Positions 1 to 9,877 of a stretch of DNA of 64,000 bases are shown here, in pieces. Both the position numbers and the translations under genes were made by a program. The DNA is from Variovorax sp. HW608 (lineage in GTDB: Bacteria > Pseudomonadota > Gammaproteobacteria > Burkholderiales > Burkholderiaceae_C): contig NZ_LT607803.1 of assembly GCF_900090195.1 (NCBI RefSeq), forward strand, positions 3,808,229 through 3,872,228, written 5' to 3'. The notes beneath the pieces are model-generated. The model saw only the letters and a list, made by a program, of their open reading frames with translations, did no database searches and was not told where the DNA came from. The first letter of the stretch is position 1; every line of letters begins with the position of its first letter.

Positions 1-396
1 CGTGACGATGCAGAGCGTGAGAAACGCCTGCACCGCCAGCGGCAGGTTGCGCGGCGCGGCCCACGCCGACACCGCGCAGACGACGGCCGGCAGCACGAAG
101 ATGCGCGCGGCCGCCTTGATCGCCGGCGCGATGCGGCCGCGGTGACGCCAGGTGCCGACGAGCTCCATGGCGGCCGCGACGCCCGCGAGGATCAGCAGCA
201 GCCAGACCGTGCCGGGCACCTTGCCGGTCTGGAAGATGGCGAGCGTGAGCGCGCCATAGGCGACGAACTCGCCCTGCGGGATGAAGATGACGCGGGTCAC
301 CGTGAACACGAGCACGATGCCCATGCCGAGCAGCGCGTAGATCGCCCCGTTCGTGAGTCCGTCCAGCGTCAGGATGCTGGCAATTGAGAAGTCCAT
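1..396 (-). CDS. Branched-chain amino acid-type ABC transporter permease (LivH family), 3' end outside window
   Basis: Inner-membrane permease of the LivHM/HAAT class; only the first 132 residues are in the window and the gene runs off the left edge. The N-terminus has the LivH-like pattern [16 protein letters not shown] followed by a short cytoplasmic part and [13 protein letters not shown], and is very hydrophobic. It starts 31 bases after the stop of the LivK-type gene, so it is in the same operon. The insertion of extra residues around positions 60-95 before the next hydrophobic segment is typical of longer LivH proteins of Comamonadaceae. Given the neighbouring CoA ligase and hydratase genes the substrate is more likely an aromatic acid such as a hydroxycinnamate than an amino acid; that is inference from context. 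Confidence 0.85.
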
Positions 397-427
397 GGCG
401 GGGCTCTGCGCGATTCGCTGGCTGCGC

Positions 428-1570
428 TTACTGGGGTTGCTCGACCTTGAACTGGCCGCCCACGACCTTCAGCATCACGCCGGTCTCGTTGGTGTAGCCC
501 CAGTGGTTCTGCGGCGTCCACTCGAGCACGCCGTGCGCGATCGTCGTGCGGCCCATGGTCTCCAGCGCATCGCGCAGCGCGGCGCGGAATTCGGGCGTAC
601 CGGGCTTGGCCTTCTTGAGCGCGATCGGCACCGCCTTTTCGAGGATGGTGAGCGCATCGGCGCTGTGGGCGGCGAACTGGTTGCGCGAGTTGGGGCCGTA
701 GGCCTTCTCGTAGCCGGTGACGAAGGCGACCGCCTGCTTCTTCGACGGATGGGTCTCGGGCAACTGCTCGGCGACCGTGGCGGGGCCGGAGACGACGAAG
801 GTGCCCTCGGCATCCTTGCCGGCGGTGCGCATCAGGTCCTGCGTCGCGGCGGCATGGGTCTGGTAGACCTTGCCCTTGTAGCCGCGCTCCATCACCGCCT
901 TCTGCGGCATGCCGGCGCCGCTGCCCGAGGCCACGATCAGGATCGCATCGGGATTGGCCGAGGTGAGCTTCAGCACCTGGGCGGTGACGCTGGTGTCGGC
1001 GCGGCCGAAGCGCTCGGCGGCGACGATCTTCATGCCGTTCTTCTCGGCCTCGGCGGTCAGCGCCTTGAGCCACAGTTCGCCGTAGGCGTCGGTGTAGCCG
1101 AGGAAGCCGATGGTCTTCACCTTCTGGCTCTTCATGTGCTGCACCACCGCGTAGGCCATCACGTCATTCGATTGCGGCAGGCGGAAGGTCCACTTGTCCT
1201 TGCCCGGCGGCAGGCCGGCCGGCGACGCGGCGAGCTGCACGGTGCCCGATTCGGCAGCCACGTCGGCCATCGGGATCGCGACCGGCGTCGCGGCCGAGCC
1301 GATGATGACGTCGACCTTGTCCTCGGTCACGAGGCGCTGCGCATCCTTGACGCCGGTGGTCGGGTCCGTGGCGTCGTCCAGCACCACGACCTTGAGGTTC
1401 TCGCCGGCGATGGACTTGGGCCACAGCGCGATCTGGTTCTTCATCGGAATGCCGAGGCCCGAGGCCGGGCCGGTGAGCGGCAGCACCACGCCCACGGTGA
1501 GGTCGGCATGCGCGATGCCGAAGAGGCCGAGCGCGAGCGCGGCAGCGAGGGTTGCTTTCTTGAAGTTCAT
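428..1570 (-). CDS. Periplasmic substrate-binding protein of a LivK-type ABC transporter
   Basis: Periplasmic binding protein of 380 residues. A clear Sec signal peptide ([22 protein letters not shown]) precedes a type I periplasmic-binding fold beginning [18 protein letters not shown], the usual opening of LivK/HAAT binding proteins (Peripla_BP_6). The start is fixed by AAGGAGACAG about six bases upstream; the reading frame extends further upstream but without a signal sequence. It lies between an SDR dehydrogenase gene and the permease gene on the same strand with gaps of 35 and 31 bases. Because it is embedded in a putative hydroxycinnamate operon it probably binds an aromatic acid; related LivK-like proteins are known to bind benzoate or coumarate derivatives. 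Ligand identity cannot be read from the sequence. Confidence 0.88.
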
Positions 1571-1605
1571 GTTGACTGTCTCCTTGGGGTCGCTACGAAA
1601 GTGGT

Positions 1606-2370
1606 TCAGCGCGGGGCCATGCGCAGCGCGCCGTCGAGGCGGATGACTTCGCCGTTCAAGTGGCCGTTGGTCACGATGTGGCAGGCCAGTTCGGCGAATT
1701 CCGAAGGCTTGCCAAGGCGCGGCGGGAAGGGGATCGACGCGGCGAGCGACTGCTGCACGGGCTCCGGCAGTTCCTTGAGCAGCGGCGTCGCGAACAGCCC
1801 CGGCGCGATCGTGCACACGCGGATGCCGTGCTGCGCGAGGTCGCGCGCCATCGGCAGCGTCATGCCGACCAGTCCGCCCTTCGAGGCGCTGTAGGCCTGC
1901 TGGCCGACCTGACCGTCGAAGGCCGCGACCGATGCGGTGAACAGCATCACGCCGCGCTCGCCGCCTTCGAGCGGTTCGAGCTTCGCGCAGCGTGCTGCGT
2001 ACAGGCGGCTGATGTTGTAGGCACCGATCAGGTTGACGTTGACCACGCGCACGAAGTCTTCCAGCGGTGCGGCGTTGCCATCCTTGCCCACGATGCGCTT
2101 GGCGCTGCCGATGCCGGCGACATTCATCAGGATGCGCGCGGGGCCGTGCGCGGCCTCGGCCTTGTCGAGCGCCGCGTTGACGCTGTCGGCCTGCGTGATG
2201 TCGCAGACGCAGGAGATGCCGCCGATCTCGGCCGCCACCTTTTCCGCGAGCGCGGCGTTCACGTCCAGTACGGCGACCTTGGCGCCGAGTCGCGCGAGCT
2301 CGCGCGCGGTCGCTTCGCCGAGGCCGGAGGCGCCGCCGGTGACGAGCGCGGCTTGTCCTTGGATGTTCAT
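1606..2370 (-). CDS. SDR-family 3-hydroxyacyl-CoA dehydrogenase (CouN-like)
   Basis: NAD-dependent short-chain dehydrogenase of 254 residues. The TGGASGLG glycine motif is at 11-18, the acidic D36 at the end of the second strand points to NAD rather than NADP, NVAGIG is at 83-88, and the catalytic S147, Y160 and K164 (YSASK) are all present. The overall pattern, ending in VIRLDGALRMAPR, resembles type II 3-hydroxyacyl-CoA dehydrogenase (17-beta-HSD10-like). It starts 23 bases after the CoA synthetase gene. In the proposed pathway it would oxidise 3-hydroxy-3-(4-hydroxyphenyl)propionyl-CoA to the beta-keto thioester, the role of CouN in Rhodococcus. The family assignment is firm; the substrate is inferred from neighbours. 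Confidence 0.88.
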   Translation of the reverse strand: MNIQGQAALVTGGASGLGEATARELARLGAKVAVLDVNAALAEKVAAEIGGISCVCDITQADSVNAALDKAEAAHGPARILMNVAGIGSAKRIVGKDGNAAPLEDFVRVVNVNLIGAYNISRLYAARCAKLEPLEGGERGVMLFTASVAAFDGQVGQQAYSASKGGLVGMTLPMARDLAQHGIRVCTIAPGLFATPLLKELPEPVQQSLAASIPFPPRLGKPSEFAELACHIVTNGHLNGEVIRLDGALRMAPR

Positions 2371-2393
2371 GGCTTGTGTCTCCGTGGGGTCTG

Positions 2394-4280
2394 TTACTGG
2401 GGCTTCAACGTGAAAGGCAGCGTGTCGGCATGCAGGGAATCCACCAGTTCGCCGCGGTGCTTGAGCACGGCGCGCTGGTTGATCGAGCCCTTGTCGGTCA
2501 CTTCGCCCTTGTCGATCGAGGGCGGCTCCGAAACGATATGGGCGCGCGCGATGCGGTTGGCGCTGCCGGTGCTCGACGCGGCGAGCGTGTCGAGCATTTG
2601 CTGCAGCTGCGCCTGCACCGGCGCGCTTTCGACCACGTCCTGCATCGGCGCGTCGGATGCGAGGCCTGCGAGCTGGCGCACCGCCTGCGTCGGGAAGATC
2701 AGCGCGCCGACTTCCTTCAGGTTGAGGCCGGTCAGCACCACGTCCTGCACGTAGGGCGCACCGGCGGCGATGATCCTCGCGCGCAGCGGGCCGACGCTCA
2801 CGAAGGTGCCGGTGGCGAGCTTGAAGTCCTCGGCGATGCGGCCGTCGAAGCGCAGGCCGCGGTGCACGTCGTTCTCGTCGATCCACTTCACCGCGTCGCC
2901 GGTGCAGAGGAAGCCTTCCTCGTCGAAGGCCTCGCGCGTGGCTTCCGGCGAGCGCCAGTAGCCCGGCGTGACGTTGGGCCCGCGGTAGCGCACCTCGACC
3001 TTGCCGTCGACCTCGATGAGCTTGAGCGTCATGCCCGGCGTCGGCACGCCGACATCGCCGGCGCGCACGTCGGGGCTGTTGATGAACATCGCCGAAGGGC
3101 CGGATTCGGTCATGCCGAGGCCGGTCGCCATCACGATGCGCTCGCCGATCTCGGCTTCCTGGATCGAATGGAGCAGGTCCCACACCGGCTGCGCCAGCGC
3201 CGCGCCGGAGTAGAAGAACATGCGCACGCGCGACAGCAGCGTCTTGCGCAGCTGCGCATCGGTGCGCATCGCATTGGCGATGGCCTCGAAGCCGGTCGGC
3301 ACGTTGAAGTACACCGTCGGCGCGATCTCGCGCAGATTGCGCAGGGTCTCGGCCATGCCCGCGGGCGTCGGCTTGCCGTCGTCGATGTAGAGCGTGCCGC
3401 CGTGGTAGATCGTGATGCCGACGTTGTGGTTGCTGCCGAAGGTGTGGTTCCAGGGCAGCCAGTCGACGAGCACCGGCGGCTCGTCGGCGAGCGAGGGCAT
3501 CGACTGCGCGATCTGCACCTGGTTGGCGCACCACATGCGCTGCGTGTTGATCACCGCCTTGGGCATCTTGGTCGAGCCCGAGGTGAAGAGGAACTTGGTG
3601 ATCGTGTCCGGCCCGGTGGCCGCCATGGCCGCATCGACCGCCGGCGTGGCGGGGGTGTCGAGCAGGCTCTGGAACGTGGTGACCGCGCGGCCCGCGAGAT
3701 CGGGCGACGGCGTTTCGCGGTGCAGCACCACTTCCACATCGGCCGGCACGACGGCGGCGATCGCGCGGCCGAAGCGCGCCGCGTCGCTCGCGAACACCAG
3801 CCCCGGCGTCAGCGTGTTGAAGATGTGGCGCAGCTTCTCGTAGTCCTGGCTGACGGTCGAGTAGGCAGGCGATGCCGGGCAATAGGGGATGCCGGCATAG
3901 ATGCAGCCGAGCGCGAGCTGCGCATGCTCGAGGCTGTTCTCGCTCAGGATCATCACCGGCCGCTCGGCGTTGAGGCCGCGGTTGAGCAGCCCCTGGCCGA
4001 TGCGGCGCGCGTCCTGCAGCACCTTCGCGTAGCTGAGGTGCTGCCATTCGCCGGTCGTGCCGTCTGCCAACTGCTGGCGCCGGGCCATGAAGCTGCGGTC
4101 GGGCGCGGTCTCGGCCCAATGCATCAGGCGATCGGTGATGCGCTCGGCATAGCTGCCAAGCGGCTCGGCCGCTTCGAGATAGCGCACGCCGGCGGCGCCT
4201 TCACGCACGTTGACGTGGCGCACGCCGAAAGTGACCGGCCGGTAGCGCGGCGAGATGGTGGGTTGGCGAGTGGCTGACAT
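2394..4280 (-). CDS. fcs: Feruloyl/p-coumaroyl-CoA synthetase
   Basis: Acyl-adenylate-forming ligase of 628 residues that activates a hydroxycinnamate with ATP and CoA in the cytoplasm. The phosphate-binding motif FTSGSTKMPKAV is at 232-243, the A5 motif TGLGMTESGP at 386-395, and the C-terminal TDKGSINQRA supplies the adenylation lysine. The long N-terminal part before the first motif and the NHTFGSNHN stretch are characteristic of bacterial feruloyl-CoA synthases (AMP-dependent, about 620 residues) rather than of short acetyl- or fatty-acyl ligases. The ATG is chosen because the upstream in-frame sequence is antisense-like and overlaps the hydratase gene. It begins 17 bases after the hydratase stop and is followed by the SDR gene, so it is translated from one operon mRNA. 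Confidence 0.9.
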   Translation of the reverse strand: MSATRQPTISPRYRPVTFGVRHVNVREGAAGVRYLEAAEPLGSYAERITDRLMHWAETAPDRSFMARRQQLADGTTGEWQHLSYAKVLQDARRIGQGLLNRGLNAERPVMILSENSLEHAQLALGCIYAGIPYCPASPAYSTVSQDYEKLRHIFNTLTPGLVFASDAARFGRAIAAVVPADVEVVLHRETPSPDLAGRAVTTFQSLLDTPATPAVDAAMAATGPDTITKFLFTSGSTKMPKAVINTQRMWCANQVQIAQSMPSLADEPPVLVDWLPWNHTFGSNHNVGITIYHGGTLYIDDGKPTPAGMAETLRNLREIAPTVYFNVPTGFEAIANAMRTDAQLRKTLLSRVRMFFYSGAALAQPVWDLLHSIQEAEIGERIVMATGLGMTESGPSAMFINSPDVRAGDVGVPTPGMTLKLIEVDGKVEVRYRGPNVTPGYWRSPEATREAFDEEGFLCTGDAVKWIDENDVHRGLRFDGRIAEDFKLATGTFVSVGPLRARIIAAGAPYVQDVVLTGLNLKEVGALIFPTQAVRQLAGLASDAPMQDVVESAPVQAQLQQMLDTLAASSTGSANRIARAHIVSEPPSIDKGEVTDKGSINQRAVLKHRGELVDSLHADTLPFTLKPQ

Positions 4281-4297
4281 GGGGATTCCGGAATGTC

Positions 4298-5071
4298 TCA
4301 GTTCTTCTGCACTTTGTTCGCTTTGCCTTCCAGGAAGGCGCGCACGCGCTCCTTGGCGTCGGGCGCGCTCTGGGCGATGCCGGCCATCAGGGCTTCGGTG
4401 AAGAAGCCGTGGTCGGCCGGCTGCTCGGCGATGCGCGGCAGCGCGTGCATCAGCGCGTAGTTGGTCAGCGGTGCGTTCGTCGCGACGCGCCTGGCGAGTT
4501 CGACGGCCTTGTCGAAAGCGGCGCCCTCGGCAACCAGGTATTGCGCAAAGCCGGCGCGCTCGCCTTCCTCGGCGTTGTAGACGCGGCCGGTGAGCATCAT
4601 GTCGGTCATGCGCGCCGCGCCGATGAGCTTGGGAATGCGGACCGAACCGCCGCCGCCGACGAAGATGCCGCGCGAGCCTTCGGGCAGTGCGTAGAAGGTG
4701 GTGCTGTCGGCGACGCGGATGTGGCAGGCGCTGGCGAGTTCCAGGCCGCCGCCGACCACCGCGCCGTGCAGCGCCGCGATCACCGGCACCGGGCCGTGCT
4801 GCACGAGGTCGAGCGCCGCATGCCACATGCGCGAATGGATGAGGCCCTGGCCGGCGTCGCGCTCCTGCAGCTCGGACAGATCGAGCCCGGCGCAGAAATG
4901 CGGGCCCTCGCCGTCGATGACCGCGGCGCGCACCGAGGACGGCAGGTTTTCGAAGGTGTTGCGCAGCGCCAGGATCAGCGCGTCGGACAGCGCGTTGCGT
5001 TTGCTGGCGCGGGTGAGGCGGACGATGGCGATGTCGTCCTGGAGTTCGAGCTGGAGATCGGTGTGGGTCAT
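4298..5071 (-). CDS. Enoyl-CoA hydratase/crotonase (CouM-like)
   Basis: Crotonase-fold protein of 257 residues, first gene of the minus-strand operon. The oxyanion-hole segment HFCAGLDL (58-65) and HGAVVGGGLELAS (102-114) are present. The two glutamates needed for water addition in true hydratases are conserved with the classical spacing of 20 residues (E111 in GGLELA and E131 in LPEGSRG). That argues for hydration of the cinnamoyl-CoA double bond rather than the retro-aldol lyase activity of vanillin-forming Ech. The start has CGGAA about eight bases upstream. The promoter with its palindromic operator lies immediately upstream, between this gene and the divergent amidohydrolase. Function in hydroxycinnamate breakdown is inferred from the adjacent CoA ligase. 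Confidence 0.88.
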   Translation of the reverse strand: MTHTDLQLELQDDIAIVRLTRASKRNALSDALILALRNTFENLPSSVRAAVIDGEGPHFCAGLDLSELQERDAGQGLIHSRMWHAALDLVQHGPVPVIAALHGAVVGGGLELASACHIRVADSTTFYALPEGSRGIFVGGGGSVRIPKLIGAARMTDMMLTGRVYNAEEGERAGFAQYLVAEGAAFDKAVELARRVATNAPLTNYALMHALPRIAEQPADHGFFTEALMAGIAQSAPDAKERVRAFLEGKANKVQKN

Positions 5072-5094
5072 GATTGCATTCCGGGTTGCGATCG

Positions 5095-5123
5095 ATTATG
5101 GTTATGAAAAATAACCAATTCAA
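5095..5123 (-). promoter_or_regulatory. Sigma-70 promoter of the hydroxycinnamate operon
   Basis: On the minus strand TTGAAT (5123-5118) and CATAAT (5100-5095) are separated by exactly 17 bases, giving a good sigma-70 match that would start transcription near 5088, about 17 bases before the hydratase start. The spacer is almost entirely occupied by the palindrome at 5099-5117, so a bound repressor would block RNA polymerase directly. No mapped start site supports this; it is a sequence match. Confidence 0.6.
5099..5117. promoter_or_regulatory. Palindromic operator between divergent catabolic genes
   Basis: A perfect inverted repeat with 7-base arms and a 5-base centre, TGGTTAT-GAAAA-ATAACCA. 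Size and AT-rich character fit the operators of MarR-family repressors, which control hydroxycinnamate genes in several bacteria (CouR, FerR/FerC, HcaR types). No regulator gene is visible beside it, so the repressor is probably encoded outside the window to the left. Confidence 0.6.
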
Positions 5124-5186
5124 GCCGCACATGGACCCGCGGCATGAGGACTTACCCTAAGCCTAAAACCCGTTGGAGACAACGCC

Positions 5187-6056
5187 ATGGACTACGAGAA
5201 CCTGATCGCCATCGACACCCACACGCACGCCGAAGTGAGCTGCTGGAACCCCTTCGACAACTATGGCGAGGAATACGACCGCGCGGCCGACAAATACTTC
5301 CGTTCGAGCCGCCGCCCGACCATCCAGGAAAGCATCGACTACTACCGCGAACGCAAGATCGGCCTCGTGATGTTCATGGTCGACGCGGAGTCGAACCTCG
5401 GCCGCCGGCGCATCCCGAACGAGGAGATCGCCGAGGCGGCGCAGAAGAACCCGGACATCATGATCGCCTTCGCGAGCATCGATCCCCACAAGGGCAAGAT
5501 GGGCGCGCGCGAGTCGCGGCGGCTCATCGAGGAGCACGGCGTCAAGGGCTTCAAGTTCCACCCGACGGTGCAGGGCTATCACCCCTACGACCGGATGGCC
5601 TGGCCGATCTACGAAGTCATCGCCGAATACGGCCTGCCGGCGGTGTTCCACACCGGCCACAGCGGCATCGGTTCCGGCATGCGCTGCGGCGGCGGGCTGC
5701 GGCTCGAGTACAGCAACCCGATGCACCTCGACGACGTCGCGATCGACTTCCCCGACATGCAGATCGTCATGGCGCACCCGAGCTTCCCGTGGCAGGACGA
5801 GGCGCTCAGCGTGGCGACGCACAAGCCCAACGTGTGGATCGACCTCTCCGGCTGGAGCCCCAAGTACTTTCCGAAGCAGCTCGTGCAGTACGCCAACACG
5901 CTGCTCAAGGACCGCGTGCTCTTCGGCAGCGACTACCCGCTGATCACGCCCGACCGCTGGATGAAGGATTTCGAGGAAGCCGGCTTCAAGCCCGAGGTGA
6001 TGCCCGGCATCCTCAAGGACAACGCAGTGCGCCTGCTGAAGCTCGCCGCCAAGTAG
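5187..6056 (+). CDS. Amidohydrolase-family 4-hydroxyphenyl-beta-ketoacyl-CoA hydrolase (CouO-like)
   Basis: Amidohydrolase_2 (TIM-barrel) protein of 289 residues. The metal ligands and neighbours are visible: DTHTH (10-14), the lysine-bearing FKFHP (122-126), FHTGH (154-158), MAHP (195-198) and the terminal aspartate D249 in FGSDYP. CouO of Rhodococcus jostii, a member of this superfamily that needs its aspartate metal ligand, cleaves the beta-keto thioester from p-coumarate, replacing thiolase and thioesterase. The divergent operon supplies the other three enzymes of that pathway, so I assign the same role: 4-hydroxybenzoate-type product plus acetyl-CoA. GGAGACAACGCC precedes the ATG. An ordinary amidohydrolase acting on another aromatic is the alternative. 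Confidence 0.8.
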   Translation: MDYENLIAIDTHTHAEVSCWNPFDNYGEEYDRAADKYFRSSRRPTIQESIDYYRERKIGLVMFMVDAESNLGRRRIPNEEIAEAAQKNPDIMIAFASIDPHKGKMGARESRRLIEEHGVKGFKFHPTVQGYHPYDRMAWPIYEVIAEYGLPAVFHTGHSGIGSGMRCGGGLRLEYSNPMHLDDVAIDFPDMQIVMAHPSFPWQDEALSVATHKPNVWIDLSGWSPKYFPKQLVQYANTLLKDRVLFGSDYPLITPDRWMKDFEEAGFKPEVMPGILKDNAVRLLKLAAK

Positions 6057-6176: not shown

Positions 6177-8006
6177 TCAGTTTCGGTCCCAGTCGACATG
6201 GGTCCGCTGCCGCCGCTCTTCGCGCTCGCGCGCCATCTGCTCCTGGAACTGCTGGCGGCCTTCCTTGGCCACCGCGATCAGCTTGGCGCGGTCCTTGTAG
6301 TGCGGATAGGTCTCGTGCATGAGCTGGATGTTGCGCAGGCGAAAGCGCATCGCCGTTTCGCGCGCCTCGTGCGCCGGCCAGCCCAGCCCTTCGAGCACCG
6401 AGCGGCCGCTGCGCAGCGATGACTCGAACATTTCGCGTTCGGCCGTCTCGATCTTGCGGTCGAGGAGCTGGTAGACATGCGCCACGTTGCGCGCCCGCGC
6501 GACGATCTTGGCGTTGGGGAAATGCTCGCGCAGCAGGTCGACGATCTTGAGCGACTGCTCGATGTCGTCCACGGCGACAACCACCACCTTGGCGGTGCCC
6601 GCGCCGGCGGTGCGCAGCAGGTCGAGCCGGGTCGCGTCGCCATAGAAGACGCGCAAACCGAATTCGCGCAGGCTTTCGATGGTGTCCGGATCGTGGTCGA
6701 GCACCGTGATCTTCAGTCCCTGCGCGATCAGCATGCGGCCGATGATCTGTCCGTAGCGGCCGAATCCGCAGATGACCACCTTCGCATCCTGCTGCTCGGA
6801 GATCTCCTCCATGGCGCTCGGCGCCTGGATGCCGTGGCGCGCCAGCACCCACTTGTCGATCGCCACCAGCAGCAGCGGCGAAAGCAGCATCGACAGCGCG
6901 ACCGCGCCGATGAGGAACGAGGCCACGTCGGGCGGCAGCACGTCCGGCCCGGCCGCCTGGAACACCACGAAGGCGAATTCGCCACCCTGCGCGAGCAGCA
7001 GCGTGAACACCGGACGTTCCTGGTAAGCCAGGTGCATCAGCCTGGCGAGTCCATGGATCACGGCGGCCTTCAGCACCATGAAGCCGACGACGACCATCGC
7101 CATCAGCAGCGGATGCGCGAGCAGCACGCCGAAGTCGATGCTCATCCCCACCGCGATGAAGAAGAGGCCGAGCAGCAGGCCCTTGAAAGGCTCGATGTCG
7201 GTCTCGAGTTCGCGCCGGTACTCGCTTTCGGCCAGCAGCACGCCGGCCAGGAAGGCGCCCAGCGCCATCGACAGGCCGATGGACTGCATCAGCGCGGCGA
7301 TGGCGACCACCAGCAGCAGCGAGGCGGCCGTGAAGATCTCCGGCGACTTGCTGCGCGCGATCCAGCGCAGCAGGGGCCGCAGGGCCAGCCGGCCGCCGAT
7401 CACGATGGCGGCGATCACCGCGACGATCTTCAGGCCCTCCACCAGCCGGGCGATGCCGCCGAGGCCCGTGTCGGCATCGTGGCCGGCCGCGAGCAGCGGC
7501 AGCAGCGCGAGGATCGGGATCGCCGCCACGTCCTGGAACAGCAGGATCGAGAAACCCGCCTGCCCGCTTGGCGTCGGCAGCAGGTTGCGCTCGCCGAACA
7601 CCTGCAGCGCGATCGCGGTCGAGGACAGCGCCAGTCCCAGCGCGGCCACGAGCGCGACGCGCCAGCTGGCCCCGGCCAGCCAGCCGGCCAGGAAGAGCAC
7701 CGCGGCGCAGCCCAGCACCTGCGCCGAGCCCCAGCCGAAGATCGGTCCGCGCAGGCTCCACAGGCGCCTGGGCTCCAGCTCGAGGCCGACGAGGAACAGC
7801 ATCAGCACCACGCCGAACTCGGCGAAATGGAGGATGTCCTCGACGTTCGTCACCAGCCCGAGCCCCCACGGACCGATGGCGATGCCGGCCGCGAGGTACC
7901 CGATGATCGAACCCAGCCCGATCGCCTTGGACAGCGGCACGACCAGCACCGCGGCACCGAGGTAGATGAGCGAGTTGAGCAGCCAGCCCGGCAGGTGGTG
8001 TTCCAT
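6177..8006 (-). CDS. kefC: Kef-type glutathione-gated potassium/proton antiporter
   Basis: Inner-membrane antiporter of 609 residues. About twelve to thirteen hydrophobic segments span 8-385 (Na_H_Exchanger domain) and a cytoplasmic RCK/TrkA-N domain follows, with the nucleotide-binding motif CGFGRYGQIIG at 413-423. The Kef hallmark loop LETDIEPFKG (267-276) and GLFFIAVGMSIDFG (280-293) are almost the same as in E. coli KefC, where this loop contacts the regulatory domain. The acidic and arginine-rich tail after 560 resembles the KefB/KefC C-terminal helix. It lies 2 bases after its flavoprotein partner gene, so the two are one operon. Known family role: potassium efflux and cytoplasmic acidification that protect against electrophiles. 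Confidence 0.92.
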   Translation of the reverse strand: MEHHLPGWLLNSLIYLGAAVLVVPLSKAIGLGSIIGYLAAGIAIGPWGLGLVTNVEDILHFAEFGVVLMLFLVGLELEPRRLWSLRGPIFGWGSAQVLGCAAVLFLAGWLAGASWRVALVAALGLALSSTAIALQVFGERNLLPTPSGQAGFSILLFQDVAAIPILALLPLLAAGHDADTGLGGIARLVEGLKIVAVIAAIVIGGRLALRPLLRWIARSKSPEIFTAASLLLVVAIAALMQSIGLSMALGAFLAGVLLAESEYRRELETDIEPFKGLLLGLFFIAVGMSIDFGVLLAHPLLMAMVVVGFMVLKAAVIHGLARLMHLAYQERPVFTLLLAQGGEFAFVVFQAAGPDVLPPDVASFLIGAVALSMLLSPLLLVAIDKWVLARHGIQAPSAMEEISEQQDAKVVICGFGRYGQIIGRMLIAQGLKITVLDHDPDTIESLREFGLRVFYGDATRLDLLRTAGAGTAKVVVVAVDDIEQSLKIVDLLREHFPNAKIVARARNVAHVYQLLDRKIETAEREMFESSLRSGRSVLEGLGWPAHEARETAMRFRLRNIQLMHETYPHYKDRAKLIAVAKEGRQQFQEQMAREREERRQRTHVDWDRN

Positions 8007-8008
8007 CG

Positions 8009-8647
8009 TCAGGTCTCTTCCTGGCCGACAGGCCGGTCGGTTTCAGGCACCACGCAACTCGCACATTCGCCGAGGTCTTCCAGCTCGGGCCAGGTCGGGT
8101 AGGTCTGCAGCCGGTCCCGGAAGACGGCCACGTGTTCGGCCACCGCGGCATCCGACGCGCTGCGCGCGCCATGGAAGATCAGCGGCGGCAGGAAGCGCAT
8201 GCCGCACAGGGCGGCCGTCTGCTCGTACGGCGGCAGGAAGGCGTCGAAGAAGTAGCGGTTGTAGCGCTGCGGGTGGTAGCTCTCTTCCGGCCCGCCGGTG
8301 GTCGCGACGAGCCAGAAGTCCTTGCCTTCGAGCTTGTTGCCGCCCTTGCCGTAGGCCCAGCCGTAGCTGAAGACGTCGTCCAGCCAGAGCTTCTGCAGCG
8401 ACGGCATCGAGTACCACTGGATGGGATGCAGCAGCACCAGCATTTCGGCGCGGGCGAGGCGGGCCTGCTCGGTCTTCACGTCGACCGCGTAATCGGGGTA
8501 GCTGTCGTAGAGGTCGTTCACGTCGACGCCCGGAATGCCGCGTGACGCCTTGAGCAACTGGAGGTTGACGCGCGAATCGCGCCATCGGGGGTGCGCGGCG
8601 ATCACATAGATGCGGGGGGCGCTTTCCGTGCTTGTTGTTGTGGGCAT
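8009..8647 (-). CDS. NAD(P)H oxidoreductase, Kef ancillary subunit (KefF/KefG family)
   Basis: Flavodoxin-like quinone reductase of 212 residues. The fold opens with RIYVIAAHPRWRDSRVN and carries LVLLHPIQWYSMPSLQKLWLDDVFSYGWAYG, the FMN and active-site signature of the NQO1/KefF/KefG family. In enterobacteria KefF and KefG bind and activate KefC and KefB. Here the gene is immediately upstream of kefC with only 2 bases between stop and start, so translational coupling and a physical partnership are likely. The extra C-terminal tail (about residues 185-212, rich in acidic residues and containing CASC) is not part of the core fold and I cannot assign it. A TATGTT hexamer ends 6 bases before the ATG. 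Confidence 0.87.
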   Translation of the reverse strand: MPTTTSTESAPRIYVIAAHPRWRDSRVNLQLLKASRGIPGVDVNDLYDSYPDYAVDVKTEQARLARAEMLVLLHPIQWYSMPSLQKLWLDDVFSYGWAYGKGGNKLEGKDFWLVATTGGPEESYHPQRYNRYFFDAFLPPYEQTAALCGMRFLPPLIFHGARSASDAAVAEHVAVFRDRLQTYPTWPELEDLGECASCVVPETDRPVGQEET

Positions 8648-9418: not shown

Positions 9419-9877
9419 ATGCAAAAGACCTTCCAGACCCTTCAGGATCTGGCCGCATGCGTCGGCCAGGAAGTCGCGGTGAGCGAGTGGATCACCGTCA
9501 CGCAGGAACAGGTCAACCTGTTCGCCGAAGCGACCGGCGATCATCAATGGATTCACGTCGATGTCGAAAAGGCCAAGGCCGGGCCCTTCGGCGGACCGAT
9601 CGCGCATGGTTTCCTGACGCTCTCGCTGGTGCCGCGCATCTTCGATTCCTCCATCAGCGTGGTCGAGTCGGGCATGGGCGTGAACTACGGCTTGAACCGC
9701 GTGCGCTTCATGTCGCCGGTGCCGGTCGGCGGGCGGGTGCGCGGTCGCCTGAAGCTGCTGTCGTCGGAGCCGATCGCAAACCACGGGCTCCAGATGACCT
9801 GGGAGGTCACGATCGAACTCGAAGGATCGGCCAAGCCGGCCTGCGTCGCCGAATCGGTGGCGCGGCGCTATCCCTGA
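9419..9877 (+). CDS. MaoC-family (R)-enoyl-CoA hydratase
   Basis: Hot-dog fold dehydratase of 152 residues. The hydratase-2 motif lies in FAEATGDHQWIHVDVEKA followed by GPFGGPIAHGFLTLSL, giving the catalytic aspartate-histidine dyad of (R)-specific enoyl-CoA hydratases. Length equals the usual single-domain size (about 150). It stands alone between parA and the convergent trmL, with only 6 bases before the trmL stop. Substrate chain length is unknown; roles range from polyhydroxyalkanoate precursor supply to acyl-CoA breakdown. The start codon is chosen because the protein begins in register with relatives (MQKTFQTLQDL); there is no ribosome site, only the -10-like box. Confidence 0.86.
   Translation: MQKTFQTLQDLAACVGQEVAVSEWITVTQEQVNLFAEATGDHQWIHVDVEKAKAGPFGGPIAHGFLTLSLVPRIFDSSISVVESGMGVNYGLNRVRFMSPVPVGGRVRGRLKLLSSEPIANHGLQMTWEVTIELEGSAKPACVAESVARRYP

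Follow-up and report, generated by a model that had tools for sequence, protein, structure and literature searches.

A predicted CouR-type divergon for beta-oxidative deacetylation of hydroxycinnamates in Variovorax sp. HW608

How does Variovorax sp. HW608 shorten the side chain of hydroxycinnamates, by retro-aldol release of an aromatic aldehyde or by oxidation to a beta-ketoacyl-coenzyme A (CoA) thioester that is then hydrolyzed? The question is raised by positions 1-6056 of the 64,000-nucleotide window analyzed here, which is made up of bases 3,808,229-3,872,228 of the single contig of this genome (NZ_LT607803.1; 7,733,565 bases). A first-pass annotation of this first part recognized a CoA ligase, a hydratase, a short-chain dehydrogenase/reductase (SDR), an amidohydrolase and a Liv-type importer, split over two divergent units, and proposed beta-oxidative deacetylation with a CouO-type hydrolase and dedicated uptake. 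All these protein types and their divergent arrangement were confirmed at the place indicated, and the proposal itself is well supported by the evidence given below. We consider it very likely that the locus is a CouR-type divergon for hydroxycinnamates, in which CoA-dependent beta-oxidative deacetylation would end in a CouO-type hydrolase, and the dihydro forms of these acids are probably also used.

The amidohydrolase, encoded on the plus strand (5187..6056; 289 residues; Amidohydro_2, PF04909, 177.1 bits), provides the first line of evidence. It is 52.9% identical to a Rhodococcus jostii protein (P0269) that NCBI names 4-hydroxyphenyl-beta-ketoacyl-CoA hydrolase and that stood as our R. jostii reference in place of RHA1 CouO under its own accession (WP_011597356.1). 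Proteins carrying the same name in public sources further include one from Rhizobacter (87% identity), one from Rhizobium (60%) and many from Rhodococcus. In a tree of 46 rows, 38 of the 45 others, the R. jostii protein among them, share a 100/99 branch with the window amidohydrolase, which thus groups with the named hydrolases. Six of the seven Amidohydro_2 paralogs of the same genome fall outside this group; the seventh (L002) falls inside it, with a branch length of 6.31 that makes its placement unreliable. Examination of 31 sequences revealed that H12, H14, H155, H197 and D249 are unchanged throughout, and these residues fit what we take to be the metal site of the amidohydrolase superfamily; the AlphaFold model (pLDDT 86.1) likewise adopts the amidohydrolase fold. 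By its sequence, we assign the protein to the 4-hydroxyphenyl-beta-ketoacyl-CoA hydrolase group. The gene was recovered in 22 of 24 congeners searched and, at E <= 1e-30, in 23 genomes of a sample of 299 from the phylum, a count that contains the HW608 genome itself and one protein that is just 32% identical. A scan of named genomes with the amidohydrolase alignment placed Variovorax records at the top, with 98% identity in a Variovorax metagenome-assembled genome.

The second line of evidence comes from the 115-bp promoter that separates the divergent hydratase and amidohydrolase genes. It contains the palindrome GTTATGAAAAATAAC (5101..5115), a predicted CouR-type operator of the form GTTAT-N5-ATAAC. 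Since this pattern was derived by reading amidohydrolase promoters, the test lies in its rarity across the genome rather than in its fit to such promoters: it has exactly one match in the whole 7.73 Mb genome, the backwards control has none, and the chance expectation in the window is 0.03 sites even with one mismatch allowed. With wider patterns, a palindrome was found upstream of the amidohydrolase in all 28 gene-bearing genomes searched (20 Variovorax, HW608 included, two other members of the family, four Rhodopseudomonas and two Bradyrhizobium-like), at a gap of 52-73 bp in 27 of them and of 141 bp in the remaining one. Several congeners hold extra sites, the backwards control of the wider pattern yielding 0 to 6 per genome and strand. 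Of the two congeners without the amidohydrolase, one (G299) has no palindrome and the other (G316) has two directly upstream of the hydratase plus one elsewhere. The MarR protein encoded in the unit has as its best match in the Protein Data Bank (PDB) the structure 6C28 (68.6 bits), named CouR, which we take to be an R. palustris entry. CouR of R. jostii RHA1 is described as recognizing a different inverted repeat, likewise with a 5-bp spacer, and as having p-coumaroyl-CoA for its known ligand (PMC4737184).

The minus-strand arm begins with the CouA-type crotonase hydratase (4298..5071; 257 residues; NF006013, 420.6 bits against a cut-off of 232), followed by a feruloyl-CoA synthetase-like, CouB-like CoA ligase (2394..4280; 628 residues), which scores 717 bits with NF009232, below the cut-off of 777, and shares 53% identity with its counterpart in the Rhodopseudomonas cou locus L092. 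Next comes the SDR (1606..2370; 254 residues), whose best PDB matches (253 bits) mostly carry the name type II or short-chain 3-hydroxyacyl-CoA dehydrogenase, with FabG-type proteins down at 120 bits; its predicted kind is therefore the activity that beta-oxidation requires. It is followed by a CouP-type, Liv-type periplasmic binding protein (428..1570; 380 residues; top PDB matches 3TX6 and 4JB0, 350 bits) and by the N-terminal part of the LivH permease (1..396), which is split by the window edge; the start codons of the binding protein, SDR and ligase were chosen from the translations. The first-pass annotation had regarded the set as complete: its genes do lie at 1..6056, but the unit is about twice as long. 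In the genome sequence left of the window (L009, where a position minus 12229 gives the window position) the minus-strand unit runs on for about 7.2 kb (L009 4997-12625). This part encodes the remainder of LivH, a fusion of LivM with LivG, LivF, a protein of the tannase/feruloyl esterase kind (PF07519, 428.5 bits, with a lipobox-like LIAAC near the N-terminus, by eye), an acyl-CoA dehydrogenase and the MarR regulator. In the fusion, the LivM permease and the LivG ATPase form one reading frame (L009 9775-11598).

Third, the layout recurs. We fetched 80 named loci with the amidohydrolase as query and counted the 46 with full flanks, leaving out 34 shorter ones. Besides the amidohydrolase, present in all by construction, these contain the ligase (42), hydratase (41), SDR (33), MarR gene (28), acyl-CoA dehydrogenase (21), binding protein (16) and tannase (12), and 38 of the 46 keep the divergent order of hydratase and amidohydrolase. 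Because both the partner genes and the divergent order recur across these loci, the grouping is not a chance one. The importer is the variable part of the unit: the binding protein is found in 7 of 20 congener loci (two of the 20 being truncated at contig ends), and in two congeners (L118 and L123, with a Pfam match for the former) a TctC-type receptor takes the place of the ABC genes, which indicates that the importer is exchangeable. Beyond the genus, a Rhodocyclaceae locus (L226) carries, in one direction and in this order, Liv genes, binding protein, ligase, hydratase, amidohydrolase, SDR and acyl-CoA dehydrogenase, and in a Rhizobium locus (L058) the amidohydrolase shares a cluster with ligase, hydratase, SDR and acyl-CoA dehydrogenase. 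In two loci without a recognizable SDR (L201 and L206) a PobA-like flavoprotein lies near the set (PF01494 for L201; PobA by inspection). The earlier suggestion that a betaproteobacterial version is less well described was not supported as far as rarity goes: the divergon layout is common among the Comamonadaceae records fetched, and a Rhizobium plasmid product already bears the name 4-hydroxyphenyl-beta-ketoacyl-CoA hydrolase, its gene lying next to those for ligase, hydratase, SDR, acyl-CoA dehydrogenase and a MarR protein.

Several observations weigh against beta-oxidative deacetylation, the first of them concerning the hydratase. The first-pass annotation had read its two glutamates, E111 and E131, as a sign against retro-aldol cleavage; both are present, but they do not bear that weight. 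The best solved relatives of the hydratase are 3HIN (317 bits), which we take to be an R. palustris entry, and then 4IZB (234 bits), presumably DmdD, and each has both glutamates. The hydratase encoded at the cou locus of a Rhodopseudomonas genome (G498) and 3HIN share 98% identity, and on this ground we take 3HIN as CouA; besides hydratase and ligase, that locus comprises TRAP-like genes, LivFMGH genes and genes for a thioesterase of the 4HBT type, a CouP-like binding protein and a MarR protein, and it matches the RPA1782-1794 cluster described in PMC3610893. CouA in turn is described in PMC7997838, citing other work, as a hydratase/aldolase yielding p-hydroxybenzaldehyde and vanillin. Because such an enzyme keeps both glutamates, they cannot decide between hydration and retro-aldol cleavage, and we rejected them as proof of a true hydratase. 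Furthermore, the window hydratase is 61% identical to that of the Rhodopseudomonas cou locus, so that its nearest described relative is an enzyme said to form aldehydes. Two further points come from the gene neighborhoods. The hydratase is present in 41 of the 46 loci but a recognizable SDR in only 33, and a plasmid of Paraburkholderia sp. PREW-6R (L061 6983-14071) combines a 69% identical amidohydrolase with a MarR gene, a canonical hydratase-lyase (NF006588, 507.9 bits), an aldehyde dehydrogenase, a feruloyl-CoA synthetase-like ligase (56%) and a CouP-like protein (51%), with no SDR found in the cluster. As the hydrolase there accompanies the retro-aldol route, the amidohydrolase alone is not diagnostic of beta-oxidation.

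Hence the Variovorax hydratase might itself release 4-hydroxybenzaldehyde or vanillin together with acetyl-CoA, an aldehyde dehydrogenase being encoded elsewhere and the SDR and amidohydrolase serving side substrates. We regard this as improbable, since support for beta-oxidation rests on the company that the hydratase keeps, namely the SDR and the hydrolase: the SDR stands with hydratase and ligase in 33 of the 46 loci recovered with the amidohydrolase, and a single promoter is common to the hydratase operon and the amidohydrolase. Moreover, a whole-genome search recovered no hydratase-lyase reaching the NF006588 cut-off of 276 (best 152.8 bits; window hydratase 72.7), and none of ten scanned proteins of the unit is an aldehyde dehydrogenase, although no genome-wide search was aimed at aldehyde dehydrogenases or vanillate demethylase.

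The remaining objections concern the amidohydrolase. The closest structure to its model is the uncharacterized BB4693, followed mostly by hydroxybenzoate decarboxylases, at 14-25% identity among the 50 matches listed. Identities this low place the protein in the superfamily and go no further, and we rejected a decarboxylase assignment, given that the sequence groups with the named hydrolases in the tree. Another possibility is that the enzyme plays the role of HpeF in hydroxyacetophenone catabolism and is a mere neighbor of the hydroxycinnamate operon. Rhodococcus HpeF is reported to be 95% identical to CouO (PMC9618137), and a homolog on a Pseudomonas putida plasmid (74% identity) adjoins biotin carboxylase and HAD genes in the style of a hydroxyacetophenone cluster. 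In Variovorax, however, no carboxylase genes were seen beside the amidohydrolase, which has its 115-bp divergent promoter in common with the hydratase operon, and this leaves the HpeF role with a very small probability.

A variant that is compatible with beta-oxidation would have the unit act mainly on other phenylpropanoids, such as dihydroferulate, phloretate or unsubstituted cinnamate and hydrocinnamate, with hydroxycinnamates secondary. The acyl-CoA dehydrogenase inside the unit is in keeping with this, as is the beta-oxidation of 3-(4-hydroxyphenyl)propanoate with an ABC-type importer described for Aromatoleum (PMC9765128). Against it stand the relatives of the proteins that would meet the substrate: CouP, the closest characterized binding protein, is reported to take p-coumarate, caffeate and ferulate at nanomolar Kd, 4JB0 being CouP with ferulate bound (PMC3610893), the regulator resembles CouR with its p-coumaroyl-CoA ligand, and the unit includes a gene of the tannase/feruloyl-esterase family. 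We therefore think hydroxycinnamates the likelier main substrates and this variant rather unlikely.

Taken together, the divergon is real and conserved, and is most likely CouR-type and beta-oxidative. The genes present, the families to which they belong, their recurring synteny and the uniqueness of the palindrome are observed; in the pathway that we propose, each reaction and substrate, as well as the binding and ligand of the repressor, is predicted from sequence. The tannase-family protein would release free acids from esters and the CouP-type ABC importer would take them up; the ligase would convert them to CoA thioesters, with saturated phenylpropanoyl-CoAs entering by way of the acyl-CoA dehydrogenase. 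The CouA-type hydratase would then form the beta-hydroxyacyl-CoA, the SDR would oxidize it to the beta-ketoacyl-CoA, and the CouO-type metal hydrolase would yield 4-hydroxybenzoate or vanillate together with acetyl-CoA. Onward metabolism of 4-hydroxybenzoate would fall to PobA, for which a protein above the family cut-off (675 bits) is encoded elsewhere in the genome. The MarR protein would repress both arms through the one palindrome until p-hydroxycinnamoyl-CoA is present. Variovorax would thus possess an apparently self-contained pathway of esterase, importer, ligase, hydratase, dehydrogenase, hydrolase and regulator under one palindrome, which might be useful for converting lignin or ferulate without toxic aldehydes.

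Some further genes were noted around the unit and elsewhere in the genome. Past the left end of the unit lies a transposase-like gene (L009 3096-4868, by inspection). On the other side a potassium/proton antiporter-like gene (window 6177-8006, minus strand) is convergent with the amidohydrolase, and a quinone reductase-like gene (window ~8009-8600, minus strand) completes a Kef-type pair with it, by inspection. A MaoC-family gene (window 9419-9877, plus strand) follows 3.4 kb past the amidohydrolase, and its product shares 44-54% identity with the MaoC proteins encoded at four actinobacterial loci; we set it aside as a pathway hydratase as it was found in only 6 of the 46 full-flank loci, and in 8 of the 80 overall, nearly all from Variovorax. 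A second PobA-like gene (G000:C1:6178459-6179627) was read as two segments that overlap slightly (family positions 1-248 and 244-390) and is possibly frameshifted.

The palindrome extends the question to R. palustris, whose p-coumarate breakdown has been assigned to the aldehyde route. In the Rhodopseudomonas cou locus L092, both the TRAP genes (tarP) and couA have this palindrome upstream, and the MarR gene has a copy with one mismatch. Rhodopseudomonas and Bradyrhizobium-like genomes also encode the amidohydrolase (56-59% identity), unlinked to couAB and about 2.5-2.6 Mb away from it in three single-contig Rhodopseudomonas genomes; this unlinked gene adjoins a HAD gene in L095 and L140 (Pfam for L140) and lies about 4 kb from one in L097. 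A palindrome with at most two mismatches to GTTAT-N5-ATAAC nevertheless precedes it in all eight Rhodopseudomonas and all four Bradyrhizobium-like cases checked (L132-L139, L026, L027, L030 and L031), starting 65-81 bp upstream of the aligned start. At the same stringency none was found before the amidohydrolase of the Afipia-like G289, of Rhizobium Q54, of G262 and G155, or of the Paraburkholderia plasmid. We then searched whole genomes with RTTAT-N5-ATAAY, a pattern widened after this promoter check. It has exactly three sites each in G454 and G438, two at the cou locus and one before the amidohydrolase; those at the G454 cou locus are upstream of the TRAP genes and of couA, and likewise by position in G438. 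Further genomes have four (G498), four (G485), eight (G217) and seven (G035) sites, each including the amidohydrolase site, with 0 to 2 in the backwards controls. With so few sites per 5 Mb, a chance site so placed is very unlikely, which suggests that the CouR regulon of Rhodopseudomonas and its relatives includes the unlinked amidohydrolase.

It is possible, though we judge it somewhat less likely than not, that in Rhodopseudomonas and Bradyrhizobium-like bacteria the CouR regulon has a member overlooked so far in the CouO-type hydrolase, that R. palustris degrades p-coumarate wholly or partly via a beta-ketoacyl-CoA and this hydrolase, and that the Variovorax divergon is the linked form of the same system. 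The distribution of the SDR counts against this: none was found in the Rhodopseudomonas cou loci L092 and L093, and the Rhodopseudomonas homologs (61-62%) lie elsewhere in the genome with no RTTAT-N5-ATAAY site nearby. In the Bradyrhizobium-like cou loci L094 (6364-7558) and L096 (12266-13457), an SDR (65-67%) sits between the ligase and a 4HBT-type thioesterase (Pfam for L094), the two together lying between ligase and binding protein. The R. palustris regulon that Phattarasukol et al. (2012) reportedly determined by RNA-seq may already include the amidohydrolase. The published assignment also weighs against a beta-ketoacyl-CoA route there, as p-coumarate breakdown in R. palustris is described as non-beta-oxidative and proceeding via 4-hydroxybenzaldehyde. 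The palindrome comparison bears directly on this standing question of whether the side chain is removed via the aldehyde or the beta-ketoacyl-CoA.

A literature search found no paper on a Variovorax hydroxycinnamate cluster among the titles and abstract openings listed, which is no proof of absence; the kind of pathway is already known, and the gene combination with its single-palindrome regulon is a variant of it. In R. jostii RHA1, CouLMNO with CouR is described as carrying out beta-oxidative deacetylation (PMC4737184), and the Variovorax system resembles it in reaction logic, in a last step assigned to an amidohydrolase of the same group and in control, predicted for Variovorax, by a MarR protein at an inverted repeat whose halves lie 5 bp apart. 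Its ABC import system, feruloyl-esterase-family gene and acyl-CoA dehydrogenase are additions, and the inverted repeats differ in sequence. The earlier claim that the four R. jostii enzymes are all here is not supported as a statement of homology by three actinobacterial plasmid clusters (L056, L059 and L060) that were compared in place of RHA1 CouL, CouM and CouN: their ligases are 22-28% identical to that of Variovorax, their SDRs about 30% (two read, the L060 one being misframed) and their hydratase is a MaoC protein, so that only the amidohydrolase matches and the other three are not orthologous. For the importer, ligase, hydratase and regulator the resemblance is to the Cou proteins of R. 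palustris. With the R. palustris couAB-couPSTU-couR system Variovorax shares, by sequence comparison, a CouP-type binding protein, LivHMGF genes, ligase, hydratase, MarR gene and the same palindrome; unlike in Variovorax, neither an amidohydrolase nor an SDR was found in the loci L092 and L093, a TRAP importer (assigned by order and inspection) and a thioesterase of the 4HBT type are encoded in L092, and the R. palustris system is described as aldehyde-forming. The Fcs/Ech(HCHL)/Vdh route has the CoA ligase and the crotonase fold in common with Variovorax, whose genome leaves the NF006588 cut-off of that route unreached. Aromatoleum aromaticum is comparable, by description rather than by gene sequence, in combining betaproteobacterial phenylpropanoid beta-oxidation with ABC-type import. 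The plasmid LR606150 of Rhizobium sp. Q54 encodes counterparts of the ligase (48%), hydratase (53%), SDR (55-56%), amidohydrolase (60%), acyl-CoA dehydrogenase (39%) and MarR protein (34%), but has a TRAP importer in place of the ABC one, another gene order and no palindrome found in the locus; the hydroxycinnamate genes of A. fabrum, covered in a review (PMC10458429), belong to the same Rhizobium/Agrobacterium kind of cluster. Since the ligase, SDR and hydratase of the actinobacterial clusters compared differ, the Variovorax set is best viewed as a functional counterpart of the actinobacterial pathway that has the hydrolase in common with it and otherwise consists of parts like those of R. 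palustris and Rhizobium.

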